Positions 5,829 through 31,996 of a DNA stretch of 38,571 bases are shown here, one piece after another. Position 1 is the stretch's first letter. Each line of letters starts with the position of its first letter. Under the pieces are notes generated by a model, which was not told where the DNA came from, ran no database searches, and was given only the letters and a program-made list of their open reading frames with translations. The position numbers were made by a program, and so were the translations under genes. The DNA is from a virus. The stretch is from positions 1 through 38,571 of IMG/VR virus record IMGVR_UViG_3300027793_000152, one strand, 5' to 3'.

Positions 5829-6037
5829 AAGAATTAGATTTACACGGTATATTTCATAGAGATGTAAGAGACAAGGTAGAAAATTTTGTTCTCTTACACT
5901 CTACTGAATTACCTGTTAGAATTATCACAGGAGACTCACTTAGAATGAGAAATTTAACTGTAAACATTCTTAATAAACATAAATTTACCTACGACATACC
6001 AGCTCACAACCCTGGTGAAATAATAGTTTTATCATGA
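5825..6037 (+). CDS. Minimal Smr-like domain protein
   Basis: 70 residues. It opens with the Smr signature LDLHG (residues 4-8) and has IITGDSLRMR at 34-42 in the place where Smr domains have the TGxG loop. The order of a helix after LDLHG, a strand VRIITG, a helix and a C-terminal strand (GEIIVLS) matches the family. Smr domains bind or nick nucleic acids: MutS2-associated domains act on DNA and SmrB acts on collided ribosomes. The loop here reads TGDS rather than TGKG, so activity is uncertain. The start at 5825, inside ATGA overlap, is preferred over 5816 because it couples to the previous gene. Confidence 0.6.
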   Translation: MKELDLHGIFHRDVRDKVENFVLLHSTELPVRIITGDSLRMRNLTVNILNKHKFTYDIPAHNPGEIIVLS

Positions 6038-7131
6038 ATACTATAGACAAAAAATATCAAGACCTACTACTCCACATCCTTCGTGATGGGGTAGAAAAAA
6101 AAGATAGAACAGGTACGGGAACCAAATCAATCTTTGGTTATCAAATTCGTCATAACATGAGAGAGGGGTTTCCCTTACTCACAACAAAAAAAATGGCATG
6201 GAAAACTATGGTAACTGAATTACTTTGGTTTTTACGTGGTGATACTAACATCAAGTATTTGGTTGATAATGGTTGTAACATTTGGAATGGTGATGCTTAT
6301 AAAAATTATTTGAACATTACTAAACGTGAGTTTGAACTAAATTCAGCGATGTCGGGTCATCCTCATTTCAACCTCAAATCTGTAGATGAGTTCATAGATA
6401 AAATCAAAACTGATAAGAAATTTGCCAAAGAATATGGTGAATTAGGTCCTATATACGGTAAACAATGGAGACAATGGCAAGGTTGGATGACCACTTCTAA
6501 AGGTGAAATGGGCTCATTGTGGTTCGACCAAATTCAAAGATTAGTTCACATGTTAAGAACAGAACCTGATTCAAGAAGGCTTATGGTTAATGCTTGGAAT
6601 GTTGGTGAATTAGATGAAATGGTATTACCTCCATGCCATTACGGGTTTCAAATATATACAAGAGAACTTACATACAGGGAAAGATATAGTTTGTGGTTTT
6701 CCAAAAATTACGAAACGGGGATGGAATACGATGAAACAATAATTCCTGATTTTGATAATGAGTACTACTGCAAGACACCTACAAGAGCAATATCTTTAAT
6801 GTGGAATCAGAGGTCTGTTGATACGTTTTTAGGTTTGCCTTTCAATATTGCATCCTATGGATTACTACTTACTTTGCTCGGCAAATTAACCAATATGGTT
6901 CCCGACGAGTTAATTGGTAATTTGGGGGACACTCATTTGTATCTTAATCATATTGACCAAGCAAGGGAACAAATCGAAAGAAAATCTTTCGAACTTCCGA
7001 ACGTAAAATTAAATTTTGATTTTAAGTTCAGAGATGGTTATATTGTTGATTGGGAAAAAATCGGTGTTGATGATATCCAGTTAATGAACTACACCTCCCA
7101 CCCTTCTATCAAGGCACCTTTGAGTAATTAA
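6034..7131 (+). CDS. thyA: Thymidylate synthase with internal insertions
   Basis: The enzyme makes dTMP from dUMP using methylene-tetrahydrofolate. 365 residues, about 100 more than the E. coli enzyme. Conserved parts: DRTGTGTKSIFG (24-35) for dUMP phosphate, FPLLTTKK (46-53), WFLRGDTNI (65-73), GPIYGKQWR (138-146), PDSRRLMVNAWN (178-189), the catalytic Cys201 in PPCHYGFQ, GLPFNIASY (267-275), H301/Y303 in GDTHLYLNH, and the C-terminal HPSIKAPLSN. The extra length sits in two places: about residues 93-130, and about 210-256, between the strand after the active Cys and QRSVDTFLGLP. All key residues are kept, so it should be active. It closes the operon and overlaps the Smr-like gene by 4 nt. 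It would feed phage DNA synthesis. Confidence 0.97.
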   Translation: MNTIDKKYQDLLLHILRDGVEKKDRTGTGTKSIFGYQIRHNMREGFPLLTTKKMAWKTMVTELLWFLRGDTNIKYLVDNGCNIWNGDAYKNYLNITKREFELNSAMSGHPHFNLKSVDEFIDKIKTDKKFAKEYGELGPIYGKQWRQWQGWMTTSKGEMGSLWFDQIQRLVHMLRTEPDSRRLMVNAWNVGELDEMVLPPCHYGFQIYTRELTYRERYSLWFSKNYETGMEYDETIIPDFDNEYYCKTPTRAISLMWNQRSVDTFLGLPFNIASYGLLLTLLGKLTNMVPDELIGNLGDTHLYLNHIDQAREQIERKSFELPNVKLNFDFKFRDGYIVDWEKIGVDDIQLMNYTSHPSIKAPLSN

Positions 7132-7784: not shown

Positions 7785-8408
7785 ATGGAATTTATCATAA
7801 GTCAATCACAGTTTCAATTAATATTGAATGAACAAAGAAATGATGATAATCTTTCTAGTTCATTGAAAAAAATGAAGTCGTTTACCAATAACATGGTTGG
7901 TAGAGTTTTGAAAACGTACGACATCAACCTTAAGATGTTTTTAACTTGGGGTACCTCAATTGCAGGATTGGTGATGCCTTTGAACGAATTTTTGAAATCA
8001 GGTGATTTTCAATTGAATGAAAGTGAAAGATATCTTGTGTTGTCGGGTATCGCCTTTTTAATATTTTTTGAAGGTAAGAGAGGGTTTATTAAAGTCATGA
8101 ACACAATCAAAGAAAATGGTTTGGAAGAAGCATTTGATGTTGCTTTATTGAAAGCCTACCAACTCAAAGACTCTTTCACAAAATTTTTAAATTCAACCAA
8201 AGTTATAACAAGTCAGGTTTTGGAAATTGTTTCATACGCATTTTTGATTCCAATAATTGGAGATATTCAAGATATTGCATATGGGGCAACGAATATCACA
8301 GAGTCCGCGGTCTTGATAGCTGAGAGACTAATAGCATCAGGTGCTGTTTTATTATCCAAAGAGATTTTAATTTCTTTGTTCAAAAAACTAATTAAGAGGC
8401 TGTTATAA
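7785..8408 (+). CDS. Predicted membrane-active protein with packaging-type leader
   Basis: 207 residues. The N-terminus MEFIISQSQFQLILNEQ ends in a possible prohead-protease site, L14-N15-E16 before Q17. Downstream are hydrophobic stretches: about 43-64 (MFLTWGTSIAGLVMPL), 80-95 (YLVLSGIAFLIFF), 146-165 (EIVSYAFLIPIIGDI) and 180-205 (SAVLIAERLIASGAVLL). An internal hydrophobic protein with a late promoter and a cleavable leader could be a head protein that acts at the membrane. No family is recognised. Its 3' end overlaps the convergent gene by 17 nt. Confidence 0.7.
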   Translation: MEFIISQSQFQLILNEQRNDDNLSSSLKKMKSFTNNMVGRVLKTYDINLKMFLTWGTSIAGLVMPLNEFLKSGDFQLNESERYLVLSGIAFLIFFEGKRGFIKVMNTIKENGLEEAFDVALLKAYQLKDSFTKFLNSTKVITSQVLEIVSYAFLIPIIGDIQDIAYGATNITESAVLIAERLIASGAVLLSKEILISLFKKLIKRLL

Positions 8409-9147
8409 AAAAATCGGGTTGAATCTTGCCGTATCTTTCTTCTTGTTTAACTCTAATCCCATTTAGTCTATTCACTCTGATAAAAACTTGAGCATATACG
8501 TCCTCAACTTTATCAATTTTTGTTTCAGGTGAAATTACTTCATATATATAGTCTTCCATTTTAGGAAGAAACCAATCTCTATCAACTAAAAGACTCCAAA
8601 GAGTTCCAGCCACATCATTTAGTTTTTCAGGATTTGGTATTACGGGTGTTTTATCTAATTCGAAGTCGGAAAGTTCCATTTTCATATAAAAATTTACGTT
8701 TTCATGAATTCCATCATAAGGAACTTTATCCCAACTTAATCTACAACTCATATCCAAAGTCTTTTCACCCTCGAAAACTGTTATGCCAATCCTTCCGAAT
8801 TCATCGTTACATTTTTTGATAATTTCACTTAGTGATTCTTTATTAATAAATGTAAAAGTATTGTTGAATAGCTCTTTATCGTTAACATCCATAACGATAG
8901 TATACGAATACGTTTTTCCGATAAATTTGTAGGCTTCGTAAATTTGGTCTTGAATTAAACTATCCAACACTTGAGCTATGTAAGATTGATTTTCTTTAGG
9001 AAGAATAACGTTTACGTTGAATCTGAAAGCATCGGCGAACCCTTCTTCAATCTCAATATCAAAGTATTGAAATATAATTCCCTCAAATTCAATTGGGTCC
9101 TTGAAATACTTTTGTAGAAATTTTAATATCCCTTGTAATTCATTCAT
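8392..9147 (-). CDS. Hypothetical protein
   Basis: 251 residues, beginning MNELQGILKFLQKYFKDP and ending QPDFFITAS. Soluble, mixed alpha/beta, acidic. Its ATG overlaps the stop of the upstream metallopeptidase-like gene, so the two are translated together. The segments VYAQVFIRVNRLNGIRV and FRFNVNVILP look like core strands. The layout (short helix, then strands ending in a VNxL segment) is loosely like the 105-residue protein at 13032, but I cannot show homology. Confidence 0.65.
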   Translation of the reverse strand: MNELQGILKFLQKYFKDPIEFEGIIFQYFDIEIEEGFADAFRFNVNVILPKENQSYIAQVLDSLIQDQIYEAYKFIGKTYSYTIVMDVNDKELFNNTFTFINKESLSEIIKKCNDEFGRIGITVFEGEKTLDMSCRLSWDKVPYDGIHENVNFYMKMELSDFELDKTPVIPNPEKLNDVAGTLWSLLVDRDWFLPKMEDYIYEVISPETKIDKVEDVYAQVFIRVNRLNGIRVKQEERYGKIQPDFFITAS

Positions 9148-13969: not shown

Positions 13970-15076
13970 TTATAAATTTGGTTTGAGTACTGTTAATACC
14001 TCAGGGTATTCTTTATCAAGAACGGCTTCATTTTTACCTTCATAAGGAATATTCTGAAGTACGTATCTAATCGCATTTAAACCTGATACTCTTTTATCCT
14101 CAGCATCAATAATAACCCATGGGTGATTAAGTGTAGATGTTTTATCGAATAATTTTTCTTTGAACTCAGTGAATCTGTCCCATAAATCCTGCATTTTGGA
14201 ATCGTTTGGTGAATATTTCCAATATTTTAACGGGGATTGTTGTCTCATTTTGAATCTTCTTGCTTGTGTGTCTTTGTCTATGGAAAACCACAACTTAAAA
14301 AGATAGTCACCCTCTTTTACCAAATCACTTTCAAAATCCTCAACGTTTTCCATAAAGTCTTCGTACTCTTCGGGTGAGCCATAACCCATCACAGGTTCAA
14401 TAAGACCTCTATTGTACCAACTTCTATCAAAAAGGTTAATCATTCCAGGTCTTATTTGTTTACGATATCTACCCCACCAATCTTTTCTATCTTCAGGTGT
14501 GGGTACCCCTAAGGCAATTACATTGTAATACCTCGGATTCAAATTTTCGATGAATTTTTTGATTGTTGACCCTTTACCTGCTGAATCTCTACCCTCAAAA
14601 ACGATGATTACTGTTTTGTTGGTTTTTTTCAACCACTCTTGGAGTTTAAGTAGTTCTACTTGTAATTCGTAAAGTTCTTTTCTGAAAACTTTCTTTGGTA
14701 CAATTGATGGTTCCTCGATTTCAAACTCATAGTCTTCACTTTCTGGTTCAGTACCATAACCTGACCTTTCTCTATATTTTAAGGATGTAATTATTTTTCC
14801 CAAATATTCTTCAACATTTTTTTTCTTATCTCCTTTTTTCAGAAGAGTCTTTCTTAGACCTCTATTCATCATGTCGAAGTCTATAATCTGATTGTTTGAA
14901 TAATCAGATATGTCCATTAAGATTTTATCAATCTTATTACTGTGAAGTTTTAGAAACTGCAAAGTTTCAACAAAACTTTTAAGGTTTACGTTCATTTTTT
15001 GACCTCCGATTTCCTCTTGTTCTGTTAGGAAACCCATAACCGCACGTATCCTTCCTATTTCATTTAATATAGACAT
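13970..15076 (-). CDS. ppk2: Polyphosphate kinase 2 family protein with packaging-type leader
   Basis: PPK2 transfers phosphate between polyphosphate and nucleotides. 368 residues with ATG at 15076, 16 nt behind a late-type box. Residues 1-25 (MSILNEIGRIRAVMGFLTEQ and on) are a short helix with the site L17-T18-E19 before Q20. Residues 30-125 are a helical, charged extension not usual in PPK2. The kinase core is 130-345: Walker A EGRDSAGKGS (161-170), WWGRYRKQIRPG (200-211), the Walker-B-like FDRSWYNRG (216-224), the lid Arg residues in QARRFKMRQQSPLKYWKYSP (271-290), and WVIIDAEDKR (320-329). A single core domain suggests a class I enzyme (polyphosphate to NTP). All key motifs are present. 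It leads a five-gene minus operon. In a virion or infected cell it could supply NTP from host polyphosphate; that is inference. Confidence 0.93.
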   Translation of the reverse strand: MSILNEIGRIRAVMGFLTEQEEIGGQKMNVNLKSFVETLQFLKLHSNKIDKILMDISDYSNNQIIDFDMMNRGLRKTLLKKGDKKKNVEEYLGKIITSLKYRERSGYGTEPESEDYEFEIEEPSIVPKKVFRKELYELQVELLKLQEWLKKTNKTVIIVFEGRDSAGKGSTIKKFIENLNPRYYNVIALGVPTPEDRKDWWGRYRKQIRPGMINLFDRSWYNRGLIEPVMGYGSPEEYEDFMENVEDFESDLVKEGDYLFKLWFSIDKDTQARRFKMRQQSPLKYWKYSPNDSKMQDLWDRFTEFKEKLFDKTSTLNHPWVIIDAEDKRVSGLNAIRYVLQNIPYEGKNEAVLDKEYPEVLTVLKPNL

Positions 15077-15092
15077 CCAAAATTCTTTATTA

Positions 15093-15100
15093 ATAAATAC
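15093..15100 (-). promoter_or_regulatory. Late-type promoter box (GTATTTAT)
   Basis: GTATTTAT, 16 nt before the PPK2 ATG. Divergent from the box at 15120. Confidence 0.65.
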
Positions 15101-15119
15101 TAATTTAATGTAAAAATCT

Positions 15120-15127
15120 GTATTTAT
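15120..15127 (+). promoter_or_regulatory. Late-type promoter box (GTATTTAT)
   Basis: GTATTTAT, 21 nt before the ATG at 15149. It is the only promoter box I see for the seven-gene exported-protein operon to 21989. Confidence 0.65.
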
Positions 15128-15148
15128 AGATACCAAGATACTTTATAA

Positions 15149-15646
15149 ATGAAGATATTACTATCATTCATACTGACCTTATTATGTTTTGTTTCATATA
15201 GTGAAAAACAAGACCCAAAAAGGATTTATATTCATCCAATTGAGAACAAGATTCAAATTGGTCCAATGGTTAAGAATCGAAATCTTACTTTTGGGGTAAA
15301 AAACATAATATTAGAGAGTCTACAAGAAATGGATTACACACTTGCAGATTCACTTAACAATTCCGACTACTCACTAAAAGTTGAACTTATATATTTCGAC
15401 ATCCTGCAAACCAATACGGGTGTTTCTGTTTTTCACAAAGACAATAGCGAAACAATCCTTAGAATGAGAGGAACACTTTATTCTCCATCTGGTAAAAAAA
15501 TCAAGGAATATCTATCCACAGGGAAATCGTCCGAGATTTCCATGTCCACAATTATTATTTCTGAAGCAGGCACAATCAATCAACAATCCGTTTCGAATGT
15601 AATAAAAAAGTCCTCAGAGGCATTAATCCAAAACCTTTTCAAGTAA
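15149..15646 (+). CDS. Exported CsgG/LPS-assembly-like protein
   Basis: 165 residues. MKILLSFILTLLCFVSYSE is a Sec signal peptide without a lipobox. The mature part runs KRIYIHPIENKIQIGPMV, then LTFGVKNIILESLQEMDYTLADSL (about 47-70), then SLKVELIYFDIL, MRGTLYSPSGKK and a C-terminal helix. This strand/helix order resembles the periplasmic nucleotide-free Rossmann-like core of CsgG-type proteins, where a helix that raises the C-terminus of an ILESL segment precedes a Y-x-(L/V)-x-(V/G) strand. It shows general similarity to the longer CsgG-like protein at 18425 in the same operon. First gene of the operon; 1 nt before the next. Confidence 0.55.
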   Translation: MKILLSFILTLLCFVSYSEKQDPKRIYIHPIENKIQIGPMVKNRNLTFGVKNIILESLQEMDYTLADSLNNSDYSLKVELIYFDILQTNTGVSVFHKDNSETILRMRGTLYSPSGKKIKEYLSTGKSSEISMSTIIISEAGTINQQSVSNVIKKSSEALIQNLFK

Positions 15647-15647
15647 A

Positions 15648-17555
15648 ATGAAAAAAACCCTTTTGGGGTTGCTTCTACTAATATGTGGTATTAGTAGTTT
15701 TGCACAAACCCCAGAAATAGGTCACTTTCAACAACTTGCAACAGTCAGAAGGGGGGATACGTTAGATGTTGCGTGGTATTACAAACCAGCACCAGGTGTA
15801 GACATCCGCGGTTTCCAAGTCGACTGGCAATTTAAGAAAACCCTATTTACCCATCTTTCAACCACGGTAGATGTTGCAGTGAACGGCAACACACCTGTTG
15901 TAGATTACAAAACTTGGAACGACTACAAATATGATTCTTACTCCAATGGGAATTATAACTACGTAGCAAACACAGACTGGACAATTGGTAGAAACTATTT
16001 GATTCTATCTAACGGTGCTGCTGTTAGTTCCAATGGTTATGTTATTCACAACAAGTACAAAATTAACAACGTAGGTCCAAACTACGATTCAGATTCCATT
16101 ACCGTTAACTGGGTAAGGATGATAAAACAAGATGGTACGTCAATTGGCGATAACGTTGCTAATCTGTCGTATAAAAAAATGGCAGTGAAGTTATTAGGGA
16201 ACCTTACCATTTCAGGTAAAGTTTTCTTACCTAACTCAGTAACTTCTAGTGGTTTATTACCAACGATTAATTGTTACGACTTTAATACAAATCAGTTAGT
16301 TTCATCAACTGTACCAAACGCATCAACAGGTCTTTATACACTAACTAACATTGAGGAAAATACAAGATACAAAATCGAGTTAAAATTCCCTCAAGATAGT
16401 TTGGCATCTCTGAGAGACAGAGCTGTTACAATAACCGATGCGGTAAAATCGTTCAATGAGTTTACATCAACTGATGTTAACTTAGGATATGGTCGTCAGT
16501 ACTTAAAACACCCATTATCATATCTAATAGGTGATATTAACCTTACAGGTACATTAGATGGTGGTGACCCTTATGGTATCTACGCATCAGTTTCAGGTTT
16601 AAAACCAATCGATTTAACTAAATTAATCAACGTATTCAAAAAAGAAGAATACGACAGTTTAGTTTTATCTAACACAACTTGGTCAACTTGGGCATCCAAA
16701 TCTAACAGAGGTATAATCGTAACGGATTCTGTTGGTACTGAAAACCTAACATTAGACTTAAAGTATTTTATACTTGGGGATGTCGACAGAACACACTCAT
16801 CTCCTGTATTTGATGGACAAGGTAGTGAGGTTTTAGCATACAATTTTATCGGTAACATGAACATAGAAATACCAAACCAATATGTTGTAGGTCAACCTCT
16901 CAATGTTCCATTTAGATTACAGACAAATGGTCTCCAAAATACAGGTTTACAGTTTGAGATGTCCTATGATATCAATAAAGTTAAATTCGAAGGAATACAA
17001 TCCAATTTGGGTGGGCCGTGGTTACAGTATGTAAACCACGACCCCCAAAAAGGTGTTGTTCGATTCGGAGGAATGAACAATCAAAAAACGGGGGCACTGA
17101 TTGGAGCGGTGACCCCGTTTAATTTAAAATTCACAGCCATTAATCCAAGCGAGGATATTTCCACATCAGTGTATGTAAGAAAACTTATGGATGCATCAAA
17201 TTCCATGGGAGAACATTTCAATATTAGTTTAGCCTCAGACGTTACAGTCTTGACCTACAGAGCCATGATGGTTGTTACACCATCACCAAATGAACAAATA
17301 ACAATCAAATTGTTCCCTAACCCGACTGAAGGGATTATCAACATGGAAATTGGTTTACCAAAACAAACTGTATTATATGCATCTATTTATGATATGGGCG
17401 GTAAGGAAGTTATTAATTTGGGTAAAATTCAACCACAAGATTTCGACTCGAAAATTATCAAAAGACTCGATGTTAGAGGTCTCCCTGGTGGATTATACCA
17501 ATTAGTAGTTTTTGATTCCCGTAATAAAACAACTAAACAATTTATAAAAATTTAA
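15648..17555 (+). CDS. Large exported protein with type IX secretion sorting domain
   Basis: 635 residues. Signal peptide MKKTLLGLLLLICGISSFAQ. Then a cohesin-like beta domain (about 20-190), a segment NLTISGKVFLPN of carboxypeptidase-regulatory type (about 190-260), a dockerin-like GDINLTGTLDGGDPYGIYAS (about 297-316), a second cohesin-like domain (about 405-545), and finally residues 553-635. The last part opens with KLFPNPTEGIINMEI and ends GLPGGLYQLVVFDSRNKTTK followed by QFIKI. This is the Por secretion-system type A sorting domain of the type IX secretion system. Such domains send folded cargo across the outer membrane and are removed by the sortase PorU. The protein would end on the host surface or outside. 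It is surprising in a phage and is the core of a key finding. Confidence 0.85.
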   Translation: MKKTLLGLLLLICGISSFAQTPEIGHFQQLATVRRGDTLDVAWYYKPAPGVDIRGFQVDWQFKKTLFTHLSTTVDVAVNGNTPVVDYKTWNDYKYDSYSNGNYNYVANTDWTIGRNYLILSNGAAVSSNGYVIHNKYKINNVGPNYDSDSITVNWVRMIKQDGTSIGDNVANLSYKKMAVKLLGNLTISGKVFLPNSVTSSGLLPTINCYDFNTNQLVSSTVPNASTGLYTLTNIEENTRYKIELKFPQDSLASLRDRAVTITDAVKSFNEFTSTDVNLGYGRQYLKHPLSYLIGDINLTGTLDGGDPYGIYASVSGLKPIDLTKLINVFKKEEYDSLVLSNTTWSTWASKSNRGIIVTDSVGTENLTLDLKYFILGDVDRTHSSPVFDGQGSEVLAYNFIGNMNIEIPNQYVVGQPLNVPFRLQTNGLQNTGLQFEMSYDINKVKFEGIQSNLGGPWLQYVNHDPQKGVVRFGGMNNQKTGALIGAVTPFNLKFTAINPSEDISTSVYVRKLMDASNSMGEHFNISLASDVTVLTYRAMMVVTPSPNEQITIKLFPNPTEGIINMEIGLPKQTVLYASIYDMGGKEVINLGKIQPQDFDSKIIKRLDVRGLPGGLYQLVVFDSRNKTTKQFIKI

Positions 17556-17559
17556 AAAA

Positions 17560-17883
17560 ATGTCTGAAGAACAAATTCAAGAGACAAATGACGGAACATG
17601 GTCAGGTCTCAAAAAAACAATCGTAGGTACTTTGGGTACCGTAGTAGCTGGAGGTGGTGTATGGTTAAGTACACTATTGTTTGGTGGTCACGATGAAAAG
17701 GCCGCAGAACCAGTACAAGCACAACCTCAACCGACAATCGTCATAAACAACTCTCAACAACAACAGGCAGCACCTGCAGGTGGTACAACAAAAGTCATTG
17801 AACGTGTTGTAGAAAAACCAGTAGCAAAACCAGCAGAACCTGTGAAGAAAGAGAAACCTTTCCAAGAGGAACCAAAATGGTAA
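17560..17883 (+). CDS. Small single-pass membrane protein with Pro/Ala/Gln-rich tail
   Basis: 107 residues. A short acidic head is followed by one membrane segment (IVGTLGTVVAGGGVWLSTLLFGG, about 22-43), then a low-complexity tail of Pro, Gln, Ala and charged residues that includes SQQQQAAPAGGTTKVIERVVE. The topology could be a tethered periplasmic or cytoplasmic tail. It lies 4 nt after the previous stop and 3 nt before the next gene. The function is unknown; a component of a membrane-anchored assembly with its operon partners is possible. Confidence 0.65.
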   Translation: MSEEQIQETNDGTWSGLKKTIVGTLGTVVAGGGVWLSTLLFGGHDEKAAEPVQAQPQPTIVINNSQQQQAAPAGGTTKVIERVVEKPVAKPAEPVKKEKPFQEEPKW

Positions 17884-17886
17884 TTT

Positions 17887-18423
17887 ATGCAACCAAACAC
17901 AGGATTTAAAGAGTTATTAAACTCCATGATGAAAAGAAGGTGGTGGATTACCTTCTTAGTTTTGGGTGGATTTGTTGTTATAATGGGTGCCATTTTTATG
18001 GCCATCTTTGAACAAAGCGCAATTAGTGGTGAATGGAAAGAATTATTACTCCTTTTACTAGGAGCGTTTATTGGGTCTTATGGTAAAATTATCGACTATT
18101 GGTTCAGCGACACCGACAAAGACAAAATGTTGGTTCAGAAAATGGACGAAGAAGATGGTGTATCGTTTTCTAATACCCAAGATGGTAGTGTTCAATCACC
18201 TCAGCAACAATCAATTACCCCCCAAGTCACCCCCCAAGTCATCCCCCAAGTCGGTGTAGAAATCGATGAAGATGGTGATGGTGTAATGGATGGGATAGAT
18301 GAAGATGGTGATGGTATAATCGACATGTATTTTGAACATCGTCAATGTGAACATGTATGGGGTGATAAAGATGGTGATGGTGAAGAAGAATGTCTTAAAT
18401 GTGGTTTAATAAAACAAGACTAA
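17887..18423 (+). CDS. Two-TM membrane protein with calcium-loop repeats and zinc knuckle (holin-like)
   Basis: 178 residues. Membrane helices lie at about 20-41 (WITFLVLGGFVVIMGAIFMA) and 52-73 (LLLLLLGAFIGSYGKIIDYW). The second, with its Gly-rich turn before a charged end, is like many phage holins. A Gln/Pro/Val linker (105-122) contains three 4-residue repeats (TPQV, TPQV, IPQV), encoded by a near-perfect 12-bp repeat at 18218-18252. Two tandem Asp-rich loops follow (DEDGDGVMDGID at 127-138, then DEDGDGIIDMYF). A CxH...CxxC zinc knuckle (C154, H156, C169, C172) closes the protein. The Asp-rich loops look like dockerin or thrombospondin type 3 calcium sites. This combination is unusual. 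Holin function is a possibility only. Confidence 0.7.
   Translation: MQPNTGFKELLNSMMKRRWWITFLVLGGFVVIMGAIFMAIFEQSAISGEWKELLLLLLGAFIGSYGKIIDYWFSDTDKDKMLVQKMDEEDGVSFSNTQDGSVQSPQQQSITPQVTPQVIPQVGVEIDEDGDGVMDGIDEDGDGIIDMYFEHRQCEHVWGDKDGDGEEECLKCGLIKQD
18218..18252 (+). repeat. Three tandem 12-bp repeats in the coding region
   Basis: The unit CCCCCCAAGTCA occurs nearly three times in frame and encodes the (T/I)PQV linker of the membrane protein. The run of Cs stands out in this AT-rich DNA. Confidence 0.7.
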
Positions 18424-18424
18424 T

Positions 18425-19177
18425 ATGAACAAATTATCTACAACACAAAAAGGAATCATCATTACAATTTTATGGTTCACTTTGTTGTTTCTATTTGCGG
18501 TAAGGGTAACTGCTCAAACTGTTGGTACAACAAAAACAGAATCTTACAAAGCAAGTTTTGAAACCAAAATAAACATTGATTCTCTTATGGATTACGATGG
18601 ACCTCAAATCCCAATTCAAATTTTAACAATTGGTATAAGTGATGAGGTTTACGAACAATATCCTGAACTTAAAGAGAAAAAAGTTGGTCTTGGTGTTGCT
18701 AACATTGTGTTAGAATATCTTTCTGAGCTCAATAGATTCACGTTTACTGAGGACAAAACCGAGATTAAAAACAGAATGGTTAAACAATTCCAAGCATCTC
18801 AAGCAGGAATATCACAAGACAAACTTGATGGTAGAGGTAAGATTAGACTTGCTCACTATTTTGTTACAATTGAGGTGTATGATTTTTCAGTATCAGAGGA
18901 TGAGACTGTTAATCTCAAAGATGGTGTTAAAAACACAGTTAATACAAGACTTGGACTTCAAGTAAGGTTCACAGATGCTGAGACAGGTGAAATTGTGGCA
19001 GCATCAGGTTTAGGTGAAGCGAAAACAGTAAGAGAATTAACATTACTTAATGATGATAATTTAAGTGATGTTAAATTCAATCAATCAACTATCGGTATAA
19101 CTACAAAGAAAGCACTTGATATTGCTTGTGGTAGAATACTCGTTAGATTAATTAAAAAGGGTAAATTCCCGAGATAA
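18425..19177 (+). CDS. CsgG-family-like exported protein
   Basis: 250 residues. Signal peptide about 1-31 (WFTLLFLFAVRVTAQ). The core follows the CsgG/curli-secretion layout: IQILTIGISDE, then KKVGLGVANIVLEYLSELNRFTFTEDK (about 85-110), then KIRLAHYFVTIEVYDFSVSEDE (about 138-160), then LGLQVRFTDAETGEIVAASGLGEAK (about 176-200) and KKALDIACGRILVRLI. In CsgG these form the periplasmic domain of an outer-membrane secretion channel. A lipobox is absent, and I do not see a membrane-spanning hairpin, so it may be a CsgG-like periplasmic protein rather than a pore. It is linked by 1-nt gaps to exported partners. Confidence 0.7.
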   Translation: MNKLSTTQKGIIITILWFTLLFLFAVRVTAQTVGTTKTESYKASFETKINIDSLMDYDGPQIPIQILTIGISDEVYEQYPELKEKKVGLGVANIVLEYLSELNRFTFTEDKTEIKNRMVKQFQASQAGISQDKLDGRGKIRLAHYFVTIEVYDFSVSEDETVNLKDGVKNTVNTRLGLQVRFTDAETGEIVAASGLGEAKTVRELTLLNDDNLSDVKFNQSTIGITTKKALDIACGRILVRLIKKGKFPR

Positions 19178-20553
19178 TGTGCAAAAGATTAAGAACTTTT
19201 TTAAGTATATTCTTTATCTTATTTCTCAGCTTGAAAGTTGATGGTCAAACTATGACCACATCTTTTGTTGACCCTTGCACAAAATCTGTAACCACATTTA
19301 CAATACCTATTCAAGGGGGTACTGTAATATATTTTTATGGTCAATCAAGAACATTCACCGCTGCAGATGTAGCTAGTGGTGAATTTGCCAATTGGATTAA
19401 TCAGTTATATTCTGATTACAGAAAAATTTCTCCTTGTTCTGTTCAATCAACAACTGTTATCAGAAATCAAATAACGGCTCAAGTAATAGGTAATGTGGTT
19501 TCGAGTATTGCAGGTGCAATTGCTTCAGAAACTGCAGGAAATTTGGTTATAGAGAACTCAAAATCTTCAGATAACTCAAAAAATAAATTAAAAAATGGAA
19601 ATCGTAATAATCCTAATGGCGGTTCCACTTCTAATAGTGGTAGTGTTGGGAGCGGTGGGACTACTAACGGACCTGGTGGAGGCAATCAAAACAATTCTCA
19701 AAGTTCTCAAAACAATAATAATCCTGTCGGTGGCGGCGTCAGTAGCTCATCTTCATCTAATCAAACAGGGTTTCAAAACTCTCAACAAACAAATAATTCA
19801 TCTGATTCAAAAGATAAAAACTCTGAAACTTCTGAAGTAGCAACAACAACACAAATGAACGTTGACGCCAGAAATGAAAAGGGGGGTAATTCAAAGTCAA
19901 CAAGGAATAATCCTGTGGTTGTATCTTCAGATTTAACAAGTGCACAGAATCTAGATAAATCATTTACGGGAATTATCAACGTCGGAATGTCTCAAACTTC
20001 AATGACGGGGACTGCAAGTTGGGGTGTAACATCTATGATTTGGTTCAATCTAAAACAATTTGCACTGAATGGACGTTATACCAAGATTCACTTCAGTAAC
20101 AACGGTAAACTGAAATGGGTTCATAATATCAATGCCACTGCATTATATAGCTACGGAAATTACATGGGATTTGTGGGTTACAGTGCAATCCTAAACGCAG
20201 GGAAGTGGGGTATTACAGGAATGAACTTAAGCGGCATGATTACAAAAGTTACCGACGAAAAAAATCTATTCATAAGTCCATCAATAACCGCTTTTTATAC
20301 AAAACCATTCAGGTCAGGAAAAAAATTAACAATATCTCCCGAAATTTATATAATTTCTACTCCTCTTGTTTACTCATCTTTTGATAAAGTAACCGTAGGT
20401 GATAGAACATTTAGCGGATTTTTAGGTTCGGGTTTTGATTATCAATTAACAAGAAGATTTAAGGTAAACGTGAACTATAAGGCGAATTTGAGTACCAATC
20501 CTGATTTTCCAATTCTTTCGTTTTTCTTAATCGGTAGTAAAATTAATTTATGA
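19177..20553 (+). CDS. Exported outer-membrane-like protein with Asn/Ser/Gly linker
   Basis: 458 residues. Signal peptide (MCKRLRTFLSIFFILFLSLKVDGQ). N-terminal domain about 25-130, with Cys in FVDPCTKSVTTF and SPCSVQST. A long low-complexity linker about 138-240 is dominated by Asn, Ser, Gly and Lys. The C-terminal half, about 250-458, has repeated aromatic/Gly strands and ends LSFFLIGSKINL, as in outer-membrane barrels. The ATG shares the A of the previous TAA. A surface anchor or a channel for the secreted neighbours is plausible. No specific family is recognised. Confidence 0.65.
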   Translation: MCKRLRTFLSIFFILFLSLKVDGQTMTTSFVDPCTKSVTTFTIPIQGGTVIYFYGQSRTFTAADVASGEFANWINQLYSDYRKISPCSVQSTTVIRNQITAQVIGNVVSSIAGAIASETAGNLVIENSKSSDNSKNKLKNGNRNNPNGGSTSNSGSVGSGGTTNGPGGGNQNNSQSSQNNNNPVGGGVSSSSSSNQTGFQNSQQTNNSSDSKDKNSETSEVATTTQMNVDARNEKGGNSKSTRNNPVVVSSDLTSAQNLDKSFTGIINVGMSQTSMTGTASWGVTSMIWFNLKQFALNGRYTKIHFSNNGKLKWVHNINATALYSYGNYMGFVGYSAILNAGKWGITGMNLSGMITKVTDEKNLFISPSITAFYTKPFRSGKKLTISPEIYIISTPLVYSSFDKVTVGDRTFSGFLGSGFDYQLTRRFKVNVNYKANLSTNPDFPILSFFLIGSKINL

Positions 20554-21989
20554 GGTATCTAATACTAATATTATTTTTTTTTCCGTTATTTTTGTTTGGA
20601 CAAAGTATAACTTCTCCACCATCAAGGATATATCAATTTAATACATCAAATCAGGACGGAAGTGGGTTTGTATTAAACGGATTCAACTCATCAACAACAT
20701 TACTGGCGTCGGTTGGATTTGTTAATCCTCCCGCTGGTACTACTTTTAGTCTCACAACAACCTCAGGACTTTCCTTTGCGACAGGGTATAATACGTGGAA
20801 TAACATTACTCGTATAGCATTTACTGGTACCATGGCAAATATCAATAACGCTTTAGCCTCTCTGAAGGTTAATACAGGTGGAACACTGGGTAATGTTCAG
20901 ATATCCGTATCTGCAACAGTAAACCCCGTAGGATATTACTATAATCCAATAAATGGCCACTTCTATAGGCCAATATCTACAACAGCAACATATGATAATG
21001 CAAAAGCACTTTCAGTTGCACAAACATTCAAAGGACAAACAGGATATCTTGTAACAATAACTTCAGCCAACGAGGAAGCATTTATTATATCAAATGTACC
21101 ACAAAGTAATATTTGGTTTGCACTTACGGATAGAGCTCAAGAAGGTTTTTGGAGAGTAGATGCTGGTCCTGAAAATGGTACATTGATTAAAACCCAAAAC
21201 GGTCAAACTGCAGGAAATATTGCAGGCCAATATAATAACTGGTGTAATGGTGAACCAAACAATTCAGGTGATGAAGATTTTGCCGTTACGAAATGGGGTG
21301 GTGGTAGTTGTTGGAACGACTTACCAGGTAACGTAAATTGGTCTAATCCCTATGTAATAGAGTTTGGTACATGGACAAACCCTGAACAACAAACATTCAC
21401 TGATTTTTATAGTGCTAACGTAACTAACCAAGTATCTTTAGGGTCAATTTCAGGAACAATATCAGTTCCAACATTATCATCATATCCATCAATTTCTTTA
21501 TTTAGAGTTGTTAATGGTGTGGACAACTTTATCGAAACCAAGACCGTAACATCAAGTGGATTTTTCACCTTCAGTGTTCCTTTTCAAAACTCAACATACA
21601 AGTTAGTTCCGTCGTTCCCCGTTATTGGTGTTACATCTCAAGATTTCAATCTTGTTTTTGACGAAACAAAAAACATTTCTACACCACCTGTAACACCAAC
21701 AGGTTTGATTCTAACGGGTACAAAACAATGGAAAGCATCTGATGTAAATAAAAACGGGACTTTAGATTTTGGGGATGCTTACTTAATCGCCTCACACATA
21801 ACAGGGTTTATGCCAATTACAGAAGTACTTTGGTTTACATCTTCAAATTACGATTTGATTAATAAAAATAATTTTGGAACTATTAGTCCTGTAACATCAT
21901 TTACACTCAATTTTGTTACAACAAGTCTAACTCAAAACATCAAATATTGTGTTTTGGGTGATGTTAACCTGTCCCATTCTTCACAGTAG
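20550..21989 (+). CDS. Exported C-type lectin-domain protein, truncated relative to its paralogue
   Basis: 479 residues. Signal peptide MRYLILILFFFPLFLFGQ. An N-terminal beta domain (about 20-130). A C-type lectin domain at about 135-273, with the sugar motif EPN (235-237), typical for mannose-type ligands, and CWNDLP (254-259). A Ca-dependent site is likely (EPNNSGDEDF, WND). A regulatory-like domain (about 290-375) and a dockerin-like module, DVNKNGTLDFGDAYLIAS (about 399-416), follow. The protein ends with YCVLGDVNLSHSSQ, the point where the 635-residue paralogue at 15648 (YFILGDVDRTHSSP) runs on into its second cohesin-like domain and type IX sorting signal. The end is followed after 3 nt by the endolysin's late box. 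So it has lost the sorting domain. Confidence 0.75.
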   Translation: MRYLILILFFFPLFLFGQSITSPPSRIYQFNTSNQDGSGFVLNGFNSSTTLLASVGFVNPPAGTTFSLTTTSGLSFATGYNTWNNITRIAFTGTMANINNALASLKVNTGGTLGNVQISVSATVNPVGYYYNPINGHFYRPISTTATYDNAKALSVAQTFKGQTGYLVTITSANEEAFIISNVPQSNIWFALTDRAQEGFWRVDAGPENGTLIKTQNGQTAGNIAGQYNNWCNGEPNNSGDEDFAVTKWGGGSCWNDLPGNVNWSNPYVIEFGTWTNPEQQTFTDFYSANVTNQVSLGSISGTISVPTLSSYPSISLFRVVNGVDNFIETKTVTSSGFFTFSVPFQNSTYKLVPSFPVIGVTSQDFNLVFDETKNISTPPVTPTGLILTGTKQWKASDVNKNGTLDFGDAYLIASHITGFMPITEVLWFTSSNYDLINKNNFGTISPVTSFTLNFVTTSLTQNIKYCVLGDVNLSHSSQ

Positions 21990-22017: not shown

Positions 22018-22860
22018 ATGCTACTAAAAGTTGGGTCTAGAGGAGAAGACGTAAAAAAACTCCAATCAAAGTTAGGTTTAGGTTCTGATGGTATTTTTGG
22101 TAAAGGAACCGAGGAAGCAATTAAATCTTTTCAATTAAAAAATGGGTTAACACCTGATGGAATAGTTGGTGAACAGACTTGGCAAAAAATCATGGGTCAG
22201 GCGGTTCTAATTACCGAACCAGCAAAGGTTACTCAGGTATCACAACCTGTAGTATCAAGTGGAACCCTCAAATTAGAAAATTTAAAAGGTCACATTCCTG
22301 ATAATGTTATTTCTCAAATTCCTGATACCGCTTCAAAGTTTGGTATTGATACTCCTTTAAAATTGGCACACTTTTTGGCACAATGTGGACATGAAAGTGG
22401 TGGATTCAAAGTGGTTAACGAGAATCTAAATTATTCTGCTAGTGGTTTGAAAGGAATCTTCGGAAAATATTTTAAAGAAGCTGGTTTAGCTGAATCATAT
22501 CAAAGAAATCCACAAAAGATTGCAAGTAGAGTTTACGGTGGTAGAATGGGTAATGGTCCTGAATCTACAGGTGAAGGATTTAAATTCAGAGGTAGAGGTT
22601 ATATTCAATTAACAGGTAAAGACAACTATACCGCATTTGGTAAGGCAATTAATGAGGATGTGGTTTCAAACCCTGATTTGGTAGCAACAAAATATCCTTT
22701 ATTATCCGCAGCTTGGTTTTTCAGTAAAAACTGTTTGAAAAGATGTGTGGATGCGTCTGATGCAACAGTTACATCTGTAACAAAATGTGTTAACGGAGGT
22801 ACTATCGGTCTTCCTGATAGATTAAAGCATTTTAAAGAATATTATAAATTATTATCTTAG
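22018..22860 (+). CDS. Endolysin: peptidoglycan-binding plus GH19 chitinase/lysozyme domain
   Basis: 280 residues. Residues 4-60 are a PG_binding_1 domain (VGSRGEDVKKLQSKLG, GIFGKGTEEAIKSFQ, DGIVGEQTW). Residues 88-278 are a GH19 domain. The general acid is E126 in AQCGHESGGF. The STGEGFKFRGRGYIQLTG stretch (183-200) with E186 is typical of phage GH19 lysozymes, as is the KYPLLSAAWFF segment. It degrades peptidoglycan at lysis. There is no signal peptide, so a holin is needed. The membrane proteins at 17887 and 27882 are candidates. Confidence 0.95.
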   Translation: MLLKVGSRGEDVKKLQSKLGLGSDGIFGKGTEEAIKSFQLKNGLTPDGIVGEQTWQKIMGQAVLITEPAKVTQVSQPVVSSGTLKLENLKGHIPDNVISQIPDTASKFGIDTPLKLAHFLAQCGHESGGFKVVNENLNYSASGLKGIFGKYFKEAGLAESYQRNPQKIASRVYGGRMGNGPESTGEGFKFRGRGYIQLTGKDNYTAFGKAINEDVVSNPDLVATKYPLLSAAWFFSKNCLKRCVDASDATVTSVTKCVNGGTIGLPDRLKHFKEYYKLLS

Positions 22861-31357: not shown

Positions 31358-31996
31358 ATGAAAAAATTATTAATAGTAACCCTTTTTTGTCTGAGTTCAA
31401 TTGTCTCATATTCACAAGACACTGTTAGAATTAAACATACAAATTACAGTACGGTTTTCTCAAAATCTAAAAAGTATCCTGTGGTGGTTGAATGGTGGGT
31501 CACTAAAAATATGGTTACCTGTCCAACTCCATTGAAAAGAAAAGACAACTTCAAAGCTGACCCAAAACTATTTCAATATACAGATTTATCAAAAGATTAT
31601 GTGGGGAGTGGTTTCGACAGAGGACATATGATGCCAGCAGCAGATAACTTGTGCCAAACTCAACAGGTTCAGGATGAGTGTTTTTATTTTTCAAACATGG
31701 CAGCACAATATCATAGTTTGAATGCTGGTGATTGGAAGTCTTTGGAAACTTTCGTTAGAGAGGAAGCCAAGAAAAGTGATTCAATTCGTGTGTGGTGTGG
31801 TAATATTGGTGAAATCAAAAAGATTGGTTCTGTATCTGTACCAAAATATTGTTGGAAAGTAATTTACATCAAGAAAGAAAATATTTGGAAATCATTCCTA
31901 TTTGAAAACAACACTTCAAAACCTGATGGGTTTCAAAACAACAAAGTCGAGATTTCTGAGATTGAAAAAATGACGGGTCTAAAATTTAAGAATTAG
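31358..31996 (+). CDS. Exported DNA/RNA non-specific endonuclease
   Basis: 212 residues, ATG at 31358. The TTG at 31343 lies inside the late box and is rejected. Signal peptide MKKLLIVTLFCLSSIVSYSQ. The nuclease signature is FDRGHMMPAAD with H90 as the general base in DRGH (87-90). N113 in YFSNMAAQYHSLNAGDWKSLE fits the metal-binding Asn, with E130 downstream. This is the NUC/EndA beta-beta-alpha-metal family. It would be active in the periplasm or outside the cell, where it could cut incoming phage DNA or free DNA. It has a late-type box and an exported nature that differs from the usual intracellular phage nucleases. Confidence 0.93.
   Translation: MKKLLIVTLFCLSSIVSYSQDTVRIKHTNYSTVFSKSKKYPVVVEWWVTKNMVTCPTPLKRKDNFKADPKLFQYTDLSKDYVGSGFDRGHMMPAADNLCQTQQVQDECFYFSNMAAQYHSLNAGDWKSLETFVREEAKKSDSIRVWCGNIGEIKKIGSVSVPKYCWKVIYIKKENIWKSFLFENNTSKPDGFQNNKVEISEIEKMTGLKFKN

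Follow-up and report, generated by a model that had tools for sequence, protein, structure and literature searches.

A seven-gene cassette in a viral contig

We analyzed a 38,571-nucleotide stretch of viral DNA (IMG/VR record IMGVR_UViG_3300027793_000152, positions 1 to 38,571), referred to below as the window. Positions 15149-21989 hold an operon-like cassette of seven genes, A-B-C-D-E-F-G, spaced from A to G by +1, +4, +3, +1, -1 and -4 bases, with an endolysin gene 28 bases further. The genes, and the features of gene B that relate it to the type IX secretion system (T9SS), are as follows.

15149-15646, + strand: gene A, secreted protein of 165 aa with a hydrophobic N terminus; distant relative of E (CsgG-like family)
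15648-17555, + strand: gene B, predicted T9SS-tagged cohesin scaffold of 635 aa; no internal stop
15648-15707, + strand: signal peptide region of B, aa 1-20, from the sequence; cleavage expected before Q20
16503-16802, + strand: dockerin-like segment of B, with a calcium-type loop DINLTGTLDGGD at aa 296-307 and a degenerate second loop, GDVDRTHSS
16845-17261, + strand: predicted cohesin domain of B, aa ~400-538, from the structure model and Pfam matches of homologues
17304-17552, + strand: T9SS type A C-terminal sorting domain of B, aa 553-635, from profiles and model
17560-17883, + strand: gene C, 107 aa, one predicted membrane helix and a P/Q/A-rich tail, without signal peptide, from the sequence
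17887-18423, + strand: gene D, 178 aa, two predicted membrane helices and acidic DxDxDG repeats, from the sequence
18425-19177, + strand: gene E, secreted protein of 250 aa with a predicted CsgG fold (model pLDDT 72); best-conserved gene of the cassette
19177-20553, + strand: gene F, 458 aa, signal peptide and N/S/G-rich linker, from sequence and alignment; homologue of immuto gp18
20550-21989, + strand: gene G, predicted secreted C-type lectin of 479 aa (Pfam Lectin_C, 5.7e-5), with a dockerin-like loop DVNKNGTLDFGD
22018-22860, + strand: endolysin with peptidoglycan-binding and GH19 domains (phrog_181, E 3.7e-66; Pfam), often adjoining the cassette

A polyphosphate kinase 2 gene (13970-15136) adjoins the cassette on the opposite strand and is kept in the clades closest to the window. 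Farther away, the thymidylate synthase gene (6034-7131) encodes ~100 residues beyond a Pfam model that is covered end to end, which suggests an internal insertion.

Gene B carries signals predicted for export by a host T9SS

The first-pass annotation had read a Sec signal peptide and a type A sorting domain (aa 553-635) in B, and both were borne out. The N terminus, MKKTLLGLLLLICGISSFAQ followed by TP, is a Sec signal peptide ending in SSFAQ, i.e., with the glutamine of the Bacteroidetes Q-rule, and Q20 is invariant among 25 aligned full-length homologues. The [A/S/G]-Q cleavage pattern predicted by this rule (PMC5837995) was found in 34/34 B, 42/42 F and 37/37 G proteins, as well as in 16 of 18 E and 22 of 31 A proteins. 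At the opposite end of B, family PF18962 matched aa 555-633 with 35.3 bits against a curated cut-off of 27 bits (E 1.5e-8, profile positions 1-74 of 75), and TIGR04183 matched with 30.1 bits against a cut-off of 23 bits (E 3.5e-7, profile positions 1-71 of 72). The sorting-domain family was found once in the whole window and, apart from a few additional matches, roughly once each in 46 whole phage records of 15-321 kb, and it was present in all 25 full-length homologues of B, which places this assignment far above chance.

In the structure model of B (pLDDT 73 for the whole protein), aa 552-634 form seven strands, in the same beta1-beta7 layout as solved T9SS C-terminal domains (CTDs) (PMC11285876). 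The PNP motif, the D..G of the beta3-beta4 loop, the G.Y.L motif and the C-terminal K/F were invariant or nearly so among the 25 homologues, G585 and F632 being invariant and K630 and K634 nearly invariant. The beta3-beta4 loop and the C-terminal motifs are required for T9SS export in Porphyromonas gingivalis, and exchange of CTDs between host species is not always possible (PMC11285876). In four clades of B, dN/dS was 0.06-0.10 for the body of the protein and about 0.05-0.23 for the sorting domain. The domain was more variable than the body in most clades while its signature positions stayed constant, a pattern expected of a transport signal.

No SprA translocon was found in nine cassette-bearing phage records, and the same search detected SprA in three T9SS-bearing bacterial genomes used as a positive control. 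SprA was present in a Flavobacterium metagenome-assembled genome (MAG) that contains a cassette contig, and the host of the isolated cassette-bearing phage immuto is a Flavobacterium. The signal peptide, the above-threshold sorting domain with invariant hallmarks, purifying selection, the phage context and the lack of a phage SprA together make it well supported in silico that B is a phage protein built for the host T9SS. The earlier proposal that B is T9SS cargo thus stands at the level of signals, selection and context, export itself being predicted.

The cassette belongs to phages

Lineages that are far apart share the order A-B-C-(D)-E-F-G. In immuto, a Flavobacterium phage available as an isolate, G corresponds to gp13, the front and back of B to gp14 and gp15, C to gp16, E to gp17, F to gp18 and A to gp19. 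Relatives of B occurred at 35 viral loci, with 56-100% identity and on contigs of up to 321 kb, and 27 further IMG/VR loci were reached from gp15, most of which share the immuto gene set. Gene A was found in nearly all cassettes, as were homologues of C (61% identity to immuto gp16). Gp23-type (T4-type) capsid genes were present in 13 of the 16 cassette records tested, including the 321-kb record and immuto.

The first-pass annotation had also allowed that the stretch might be host DNA, and Bacteroidota chromosomes do typically carry T9SS domains. This reading, or that of a chimeric contig, is refuted by immuto, an isolated phage that carries the same block; the window is itself a complete virus record, and dozens of independent viral contigs carry the cassette in synteny. 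Relatives of E, moreover, turned up at 500 viral places, against just 3 in a scan of 84,980 species genomes of bacteria and archaea, two of the three having phage-like neighbours. One relative from the genome scan (L117) adjoins a phage-type endolysin, and another (L118) lies on a 254-kb contig with a Gp23-type capsid gene. The remaining one (L119, 10025-11328) comes from Ignavibacteriales, where two paired genes are relatives of E and A and the first of them encodes a lipoprotein signal; an Ignavibacteriales protein was matched by both the A and the E profile. This pair is a possible bacterial source family of the CsgG-like phage genes.

Secreted endonucleases recur near the cassette. The window encodes a DNA/RNA non-specific Endonuclease_NS protein with a signal peptide (31358-31996, E 1.1e-39), and its relatives are either part of the cassette or adjoin it in L029, L107, L098, L101 and immuto (gp12). 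Such enzymes would suit the destruction of incoming DNA.

Gene B is a predicted cohesin scaffold and gene G a predicted lectin

Residues ~400-538 of the B model superimposed on solved cohesins with target-normalized TM scores of 0.68-0.78 (rmsd 2.6-5.5). Pfam Cohesin was not listed for the window's own B at E values up to 1 and matched 14 of its 25 homologues (best 7.8e-6), as well as immuto gp15 (E 5.9e-9), where it occurs together with the sorting domain. The predicted cohesin fold of the window's B is accordingly assigned from its own model and from homologues.

Ahead of the cohesin lies the dockerin-like segment. The dockerin-type calcium-loop motif DxNxxGxxDxxD was present in 18/34 B and 24/38 G proteins, compared with about 0.001 (B) and 0.0005 (G) occurrences per shuffled protein. 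Pfam Dockerin (Dockerin_1, two F-hand loops) matched neither the window's B or G nor the 25 homologues of B, and the segment of B has one good and one degenerate loop, so we do not claim dockerin membership for either protein, although the segment may function as a dockerin does. That B and G have this loop in common counts in favour of the role proposed below.

A profile search with G retrieved the lectin CEL-I (E 4.6e-10), and the EPN...WND sugar-binding signature was found in nearly all G members. These matches argue that G is a C-type lectin with a calcium- and sugar-binding EPN/WND motif.

C-type lectin and Ig-like domains are frequent in phage adhesion proteins. B and G could on that ground be adhesins decorating the tail or capsid, their signals being incidental. 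Q-rule signal peptides throughout the families speak against such a virion component, as do the lack of any match of B to PHROG structural families and the distance of some 20 kb or more between cassette and capsid gene in the larger records, and we consider this reading very improbable.

The remaining genes encode candidate envelope components

A fold search with the E model returned CsgG (4uv2 and 6l7a), PelC and FlgT at the top, with E values of about 1e-5 to 1e-6 and a TM score of about 0.4 to CsgG. No Pfam family, including CsgG, matched E at E 0.1, and comparing sequence profiles of A, E and F with solved structures brought up no meaningful match, so the placement of E as a CsgG fold follows from the fold match with a model of middling pLDDT (72). 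E is 54% identical to its immuto homologue; a lipobox, absent from the window's E, is present in the L149 and L119 relatives. The C terminus of F, judged by eye, is probably an outer-membrane barrel. A shorter second copy of F adjoins the cassette in L022 (11107-11883) and L118 (13537-14358). No Pfam family was found for C, and curated family searches with D gave none above cut-off. No PADLOC defence or exclusion model matched any of A to G.

These genes might instead form an envelope-lysis module, in which holin-like C and D together with A, E, F and B would perturb the outer membrane late in infection, along with the endolysin. C and D are indeed small membrane proteins, a CsgG-type ring could, judging from the fold, open the outer membrane, and the endolysin lies directly downstream of the window's cassette and close to its counterpart in many further lineages, so frequent a neighbour that a lysis role is conceivable. 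However, no holin family matched C or D in Pfam and PHROG searches, the whole lineage group L062-L081 has no endolysin around the cassette, and lysis needs neither a lectin nor a T9SS-tagged cohesin. A lysis module is in our view unlikely.

Cassette lineages probably differ in how the cohesin is anchored

We compared 60 distinct cassette loci, defined by 60 distinct E sequences. In 44 of them a CTD-tagged B lies a little upstream of E, and 14 have a B that lacks the CTD, with one or two small lipoproteins behind it; of the last two E sequences, one is cut by the contig end and one is a bacterial gene. The cassettes fall into two broad lineages, one with a fused B and an immuto-like one in which B is split exactly at the boundary between its dockerin-like and cohesin parts. 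In the latter, the sorting domain stays with the cohesin (gp15 consists of cohesin and CTD, and gp14 of the front). Such fusion or fission at a domain boundary suggests that both halves work together.

In the CTD-less lineages a cohesin-like region forms the end of B, and in several cases the end of G as well, and the lipoproteins behind it have 109-124 residues. Lipoproteins after the CTD-less B lie at:

L103, 6595-6945
L086, 6679-7047
L117, 8213-8584
L113, 5915-6630
L100, L105, L112, L116, L091 and L106, in the same place

Their position right behind genes that end in a cohesin looks as if anchoring were a conserved need. An acidic pair follows the lipid cysteine in 10 of 23 lipoproteins and loosely resembles the surface-export signal of Bacteroidetes lipoproteins (PMC5080379), so surface placement may be kept in some. 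These lineages apparently swap T9SS export for a lipid anchor, and the gene order suggests that a cohesin with an outer-membrane anchor is the constant theme, T9SS being the commoner solution.

The same loci bear on the possibility that the CTD is a structural beta-sandwich only, with B periplasmic or associated with the outer membrane in a phage-built envelope complex that makes no use of T9SS. The replacement of the CTD by small lipoproteins favours it, as do the few of these with a recognizable CTD-like match (weak matches to the sorting-domain family in at least the L103 and L113 lipoproteins); the fold may therefore also serve as an ordinary structural domain. Yet in the CTD-tagged majority the type A domain sits at the extreme C terminus with its export-relevant positions conserved, which looks like a signal under selection, and the acidic pairs of the lipoproteins leave surface placement plausible even where the CTD is missing. 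We regard a purely structural CTD as improbable.

Proposed role of the cassette

The computed features, i.e., the signal peptide and sorting domain, the cohesin and CsgG folds, the lectin motif, synteny and selection, are best accommodated if the cassette encodes a cohesin anchor, exported by way of T9SS, through which the infected Bacteroidota cell presents lectin modules on its surface, a reading to which we give a probability of roughly 0.6. B would cross the inner membrane by means of its Sec signal peptide; the host type IX machinery would then recognize its C-terminal sorting domain and export it across the outer membrane, and B would be fixed on the cell surface or released. We infer this transport, as well as the pairing of cohesin and dockerin-like parts, in which the cohesin of B would hold, non-covalently, partners with a dockerin-like ending, chiefly the C-type lectin G. 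The infected cell would thereby show a calcium-dependent sugar-binding coat. A, E with its CsgG fold, F as a probable barrel, and C and D may be envelope parts that aid export or assembly of the complex.

The most likely purpose would be the coating or cross-linking of surface glycans while infection proceeds. This could hide receptors from superinfecting phages or make infected cells adhere to neighbours or particles; receptor masking and adhesion fit a lectin coat equally. The first-pass annotation, which had missed the conserved cassette, had proposed superinfection block, adhesion or sugar capture for B, and the cohesin, lectin and CsgG-like parts narrow these roles towards a surface lectin complex.

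More tentatively, at somewhat less than even odds, we suggest that the arrangement is widespread, i.e., that T4-like large phages of Bacteroidota place a cohesin scaffold that captures dockerin-like lectins by way of T9SS or a lipid anchor, with CsgG-type outer-membrane proteins assisting, and so alter which things the infected cell adheres to or lets in. The logic would parallel, on the phage side, that of cellulosomes and curli. T9SS tagging is in any case no stray acquisition here, since it belongs to a module that many large phages of Bacteroidota conserve. If true, this would bring within reach of experiment a phage that targets its own products to the host's dedicated outer-membrane secretion system, and it offers a concrete hypothesis for the effects of large phages on the surface of infected Bacteroidota cells. 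With immuto and its Flavobacterium host in culture, the reading is directly testable.

Relation to known systems

Phage proteins with predicted T9SS type A domains were previously reported for Cryophage (Bellas et al. 2020, PMC7468147), and that paper already put forward both a hijacked host exporter and superinfection exclusion. The first-pass statement that no characterized case was known holds for experiments, no experimental study of phage T9SS cargo having been found in the literature searched, and not for predictions. Cryophage has 76 kb and highly variable cargo genes (endoglucanase, GH39 and a PA14 protein) (PMC7468147), whereas B is a cohesin scaffold that large T4-like phages conserve within a syntenic cassette. 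No description of a cohesin/lectin/CsgG cassette was found in the literature searched, subscription papers being mostly outside its reach.

A search with a generic T9SS consensus added a single phage record, LR745206, and another query added none, which indicates that single-domain sequence searches are insensitive. Two candidates lie outside the cassette:

L120 (LR745206, 634-kb uncultured phage), 8055-8654: protein of 199 aa with a signal peptide and a T9SS-type sorting domain; independent cargo candidate
L121 (same 254-kb contig as L118, binned in a Bacteroidetes MAG), 983-1837: second T9SS cargo candidate, 284 aa

Given these two, phage T9SS cargo probably arose more than once.

Proteins of Porphyromonas phages obey the Bacteroidetes Q-rule and were suggested to modify the outer membrane (PMC10367356); those are different phages, and T9SS is not mentioned in that paper. 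B resembles the type A cargo of Bacteroidota in its signal peptide and in a seven-strand sorting domain above both cut-offs, and differs in being encoded by large phages, about once per genome, in a fixed cassette without a translocon. E shares its predicted fold with the curli protein CsgG (and with PelC and FlgT), and the lipobox of its L149 and L119 relatives is like that of CsgG; the window's E, in contrast, lacks the lipobox cysteine and a Pfam match, and pore formation is putative at most. With cellulosome scaffolds the cassette shares the cohesin fold, a dockerin-like calcium loop in the partners and modules split or fused between genomes. Unlike in cellulosomes, the dockerin of the cassette is half-like and Pfam-silent, the predicted partner is a lectin, and the anchor is a T9SS domain or a lipoprotein.
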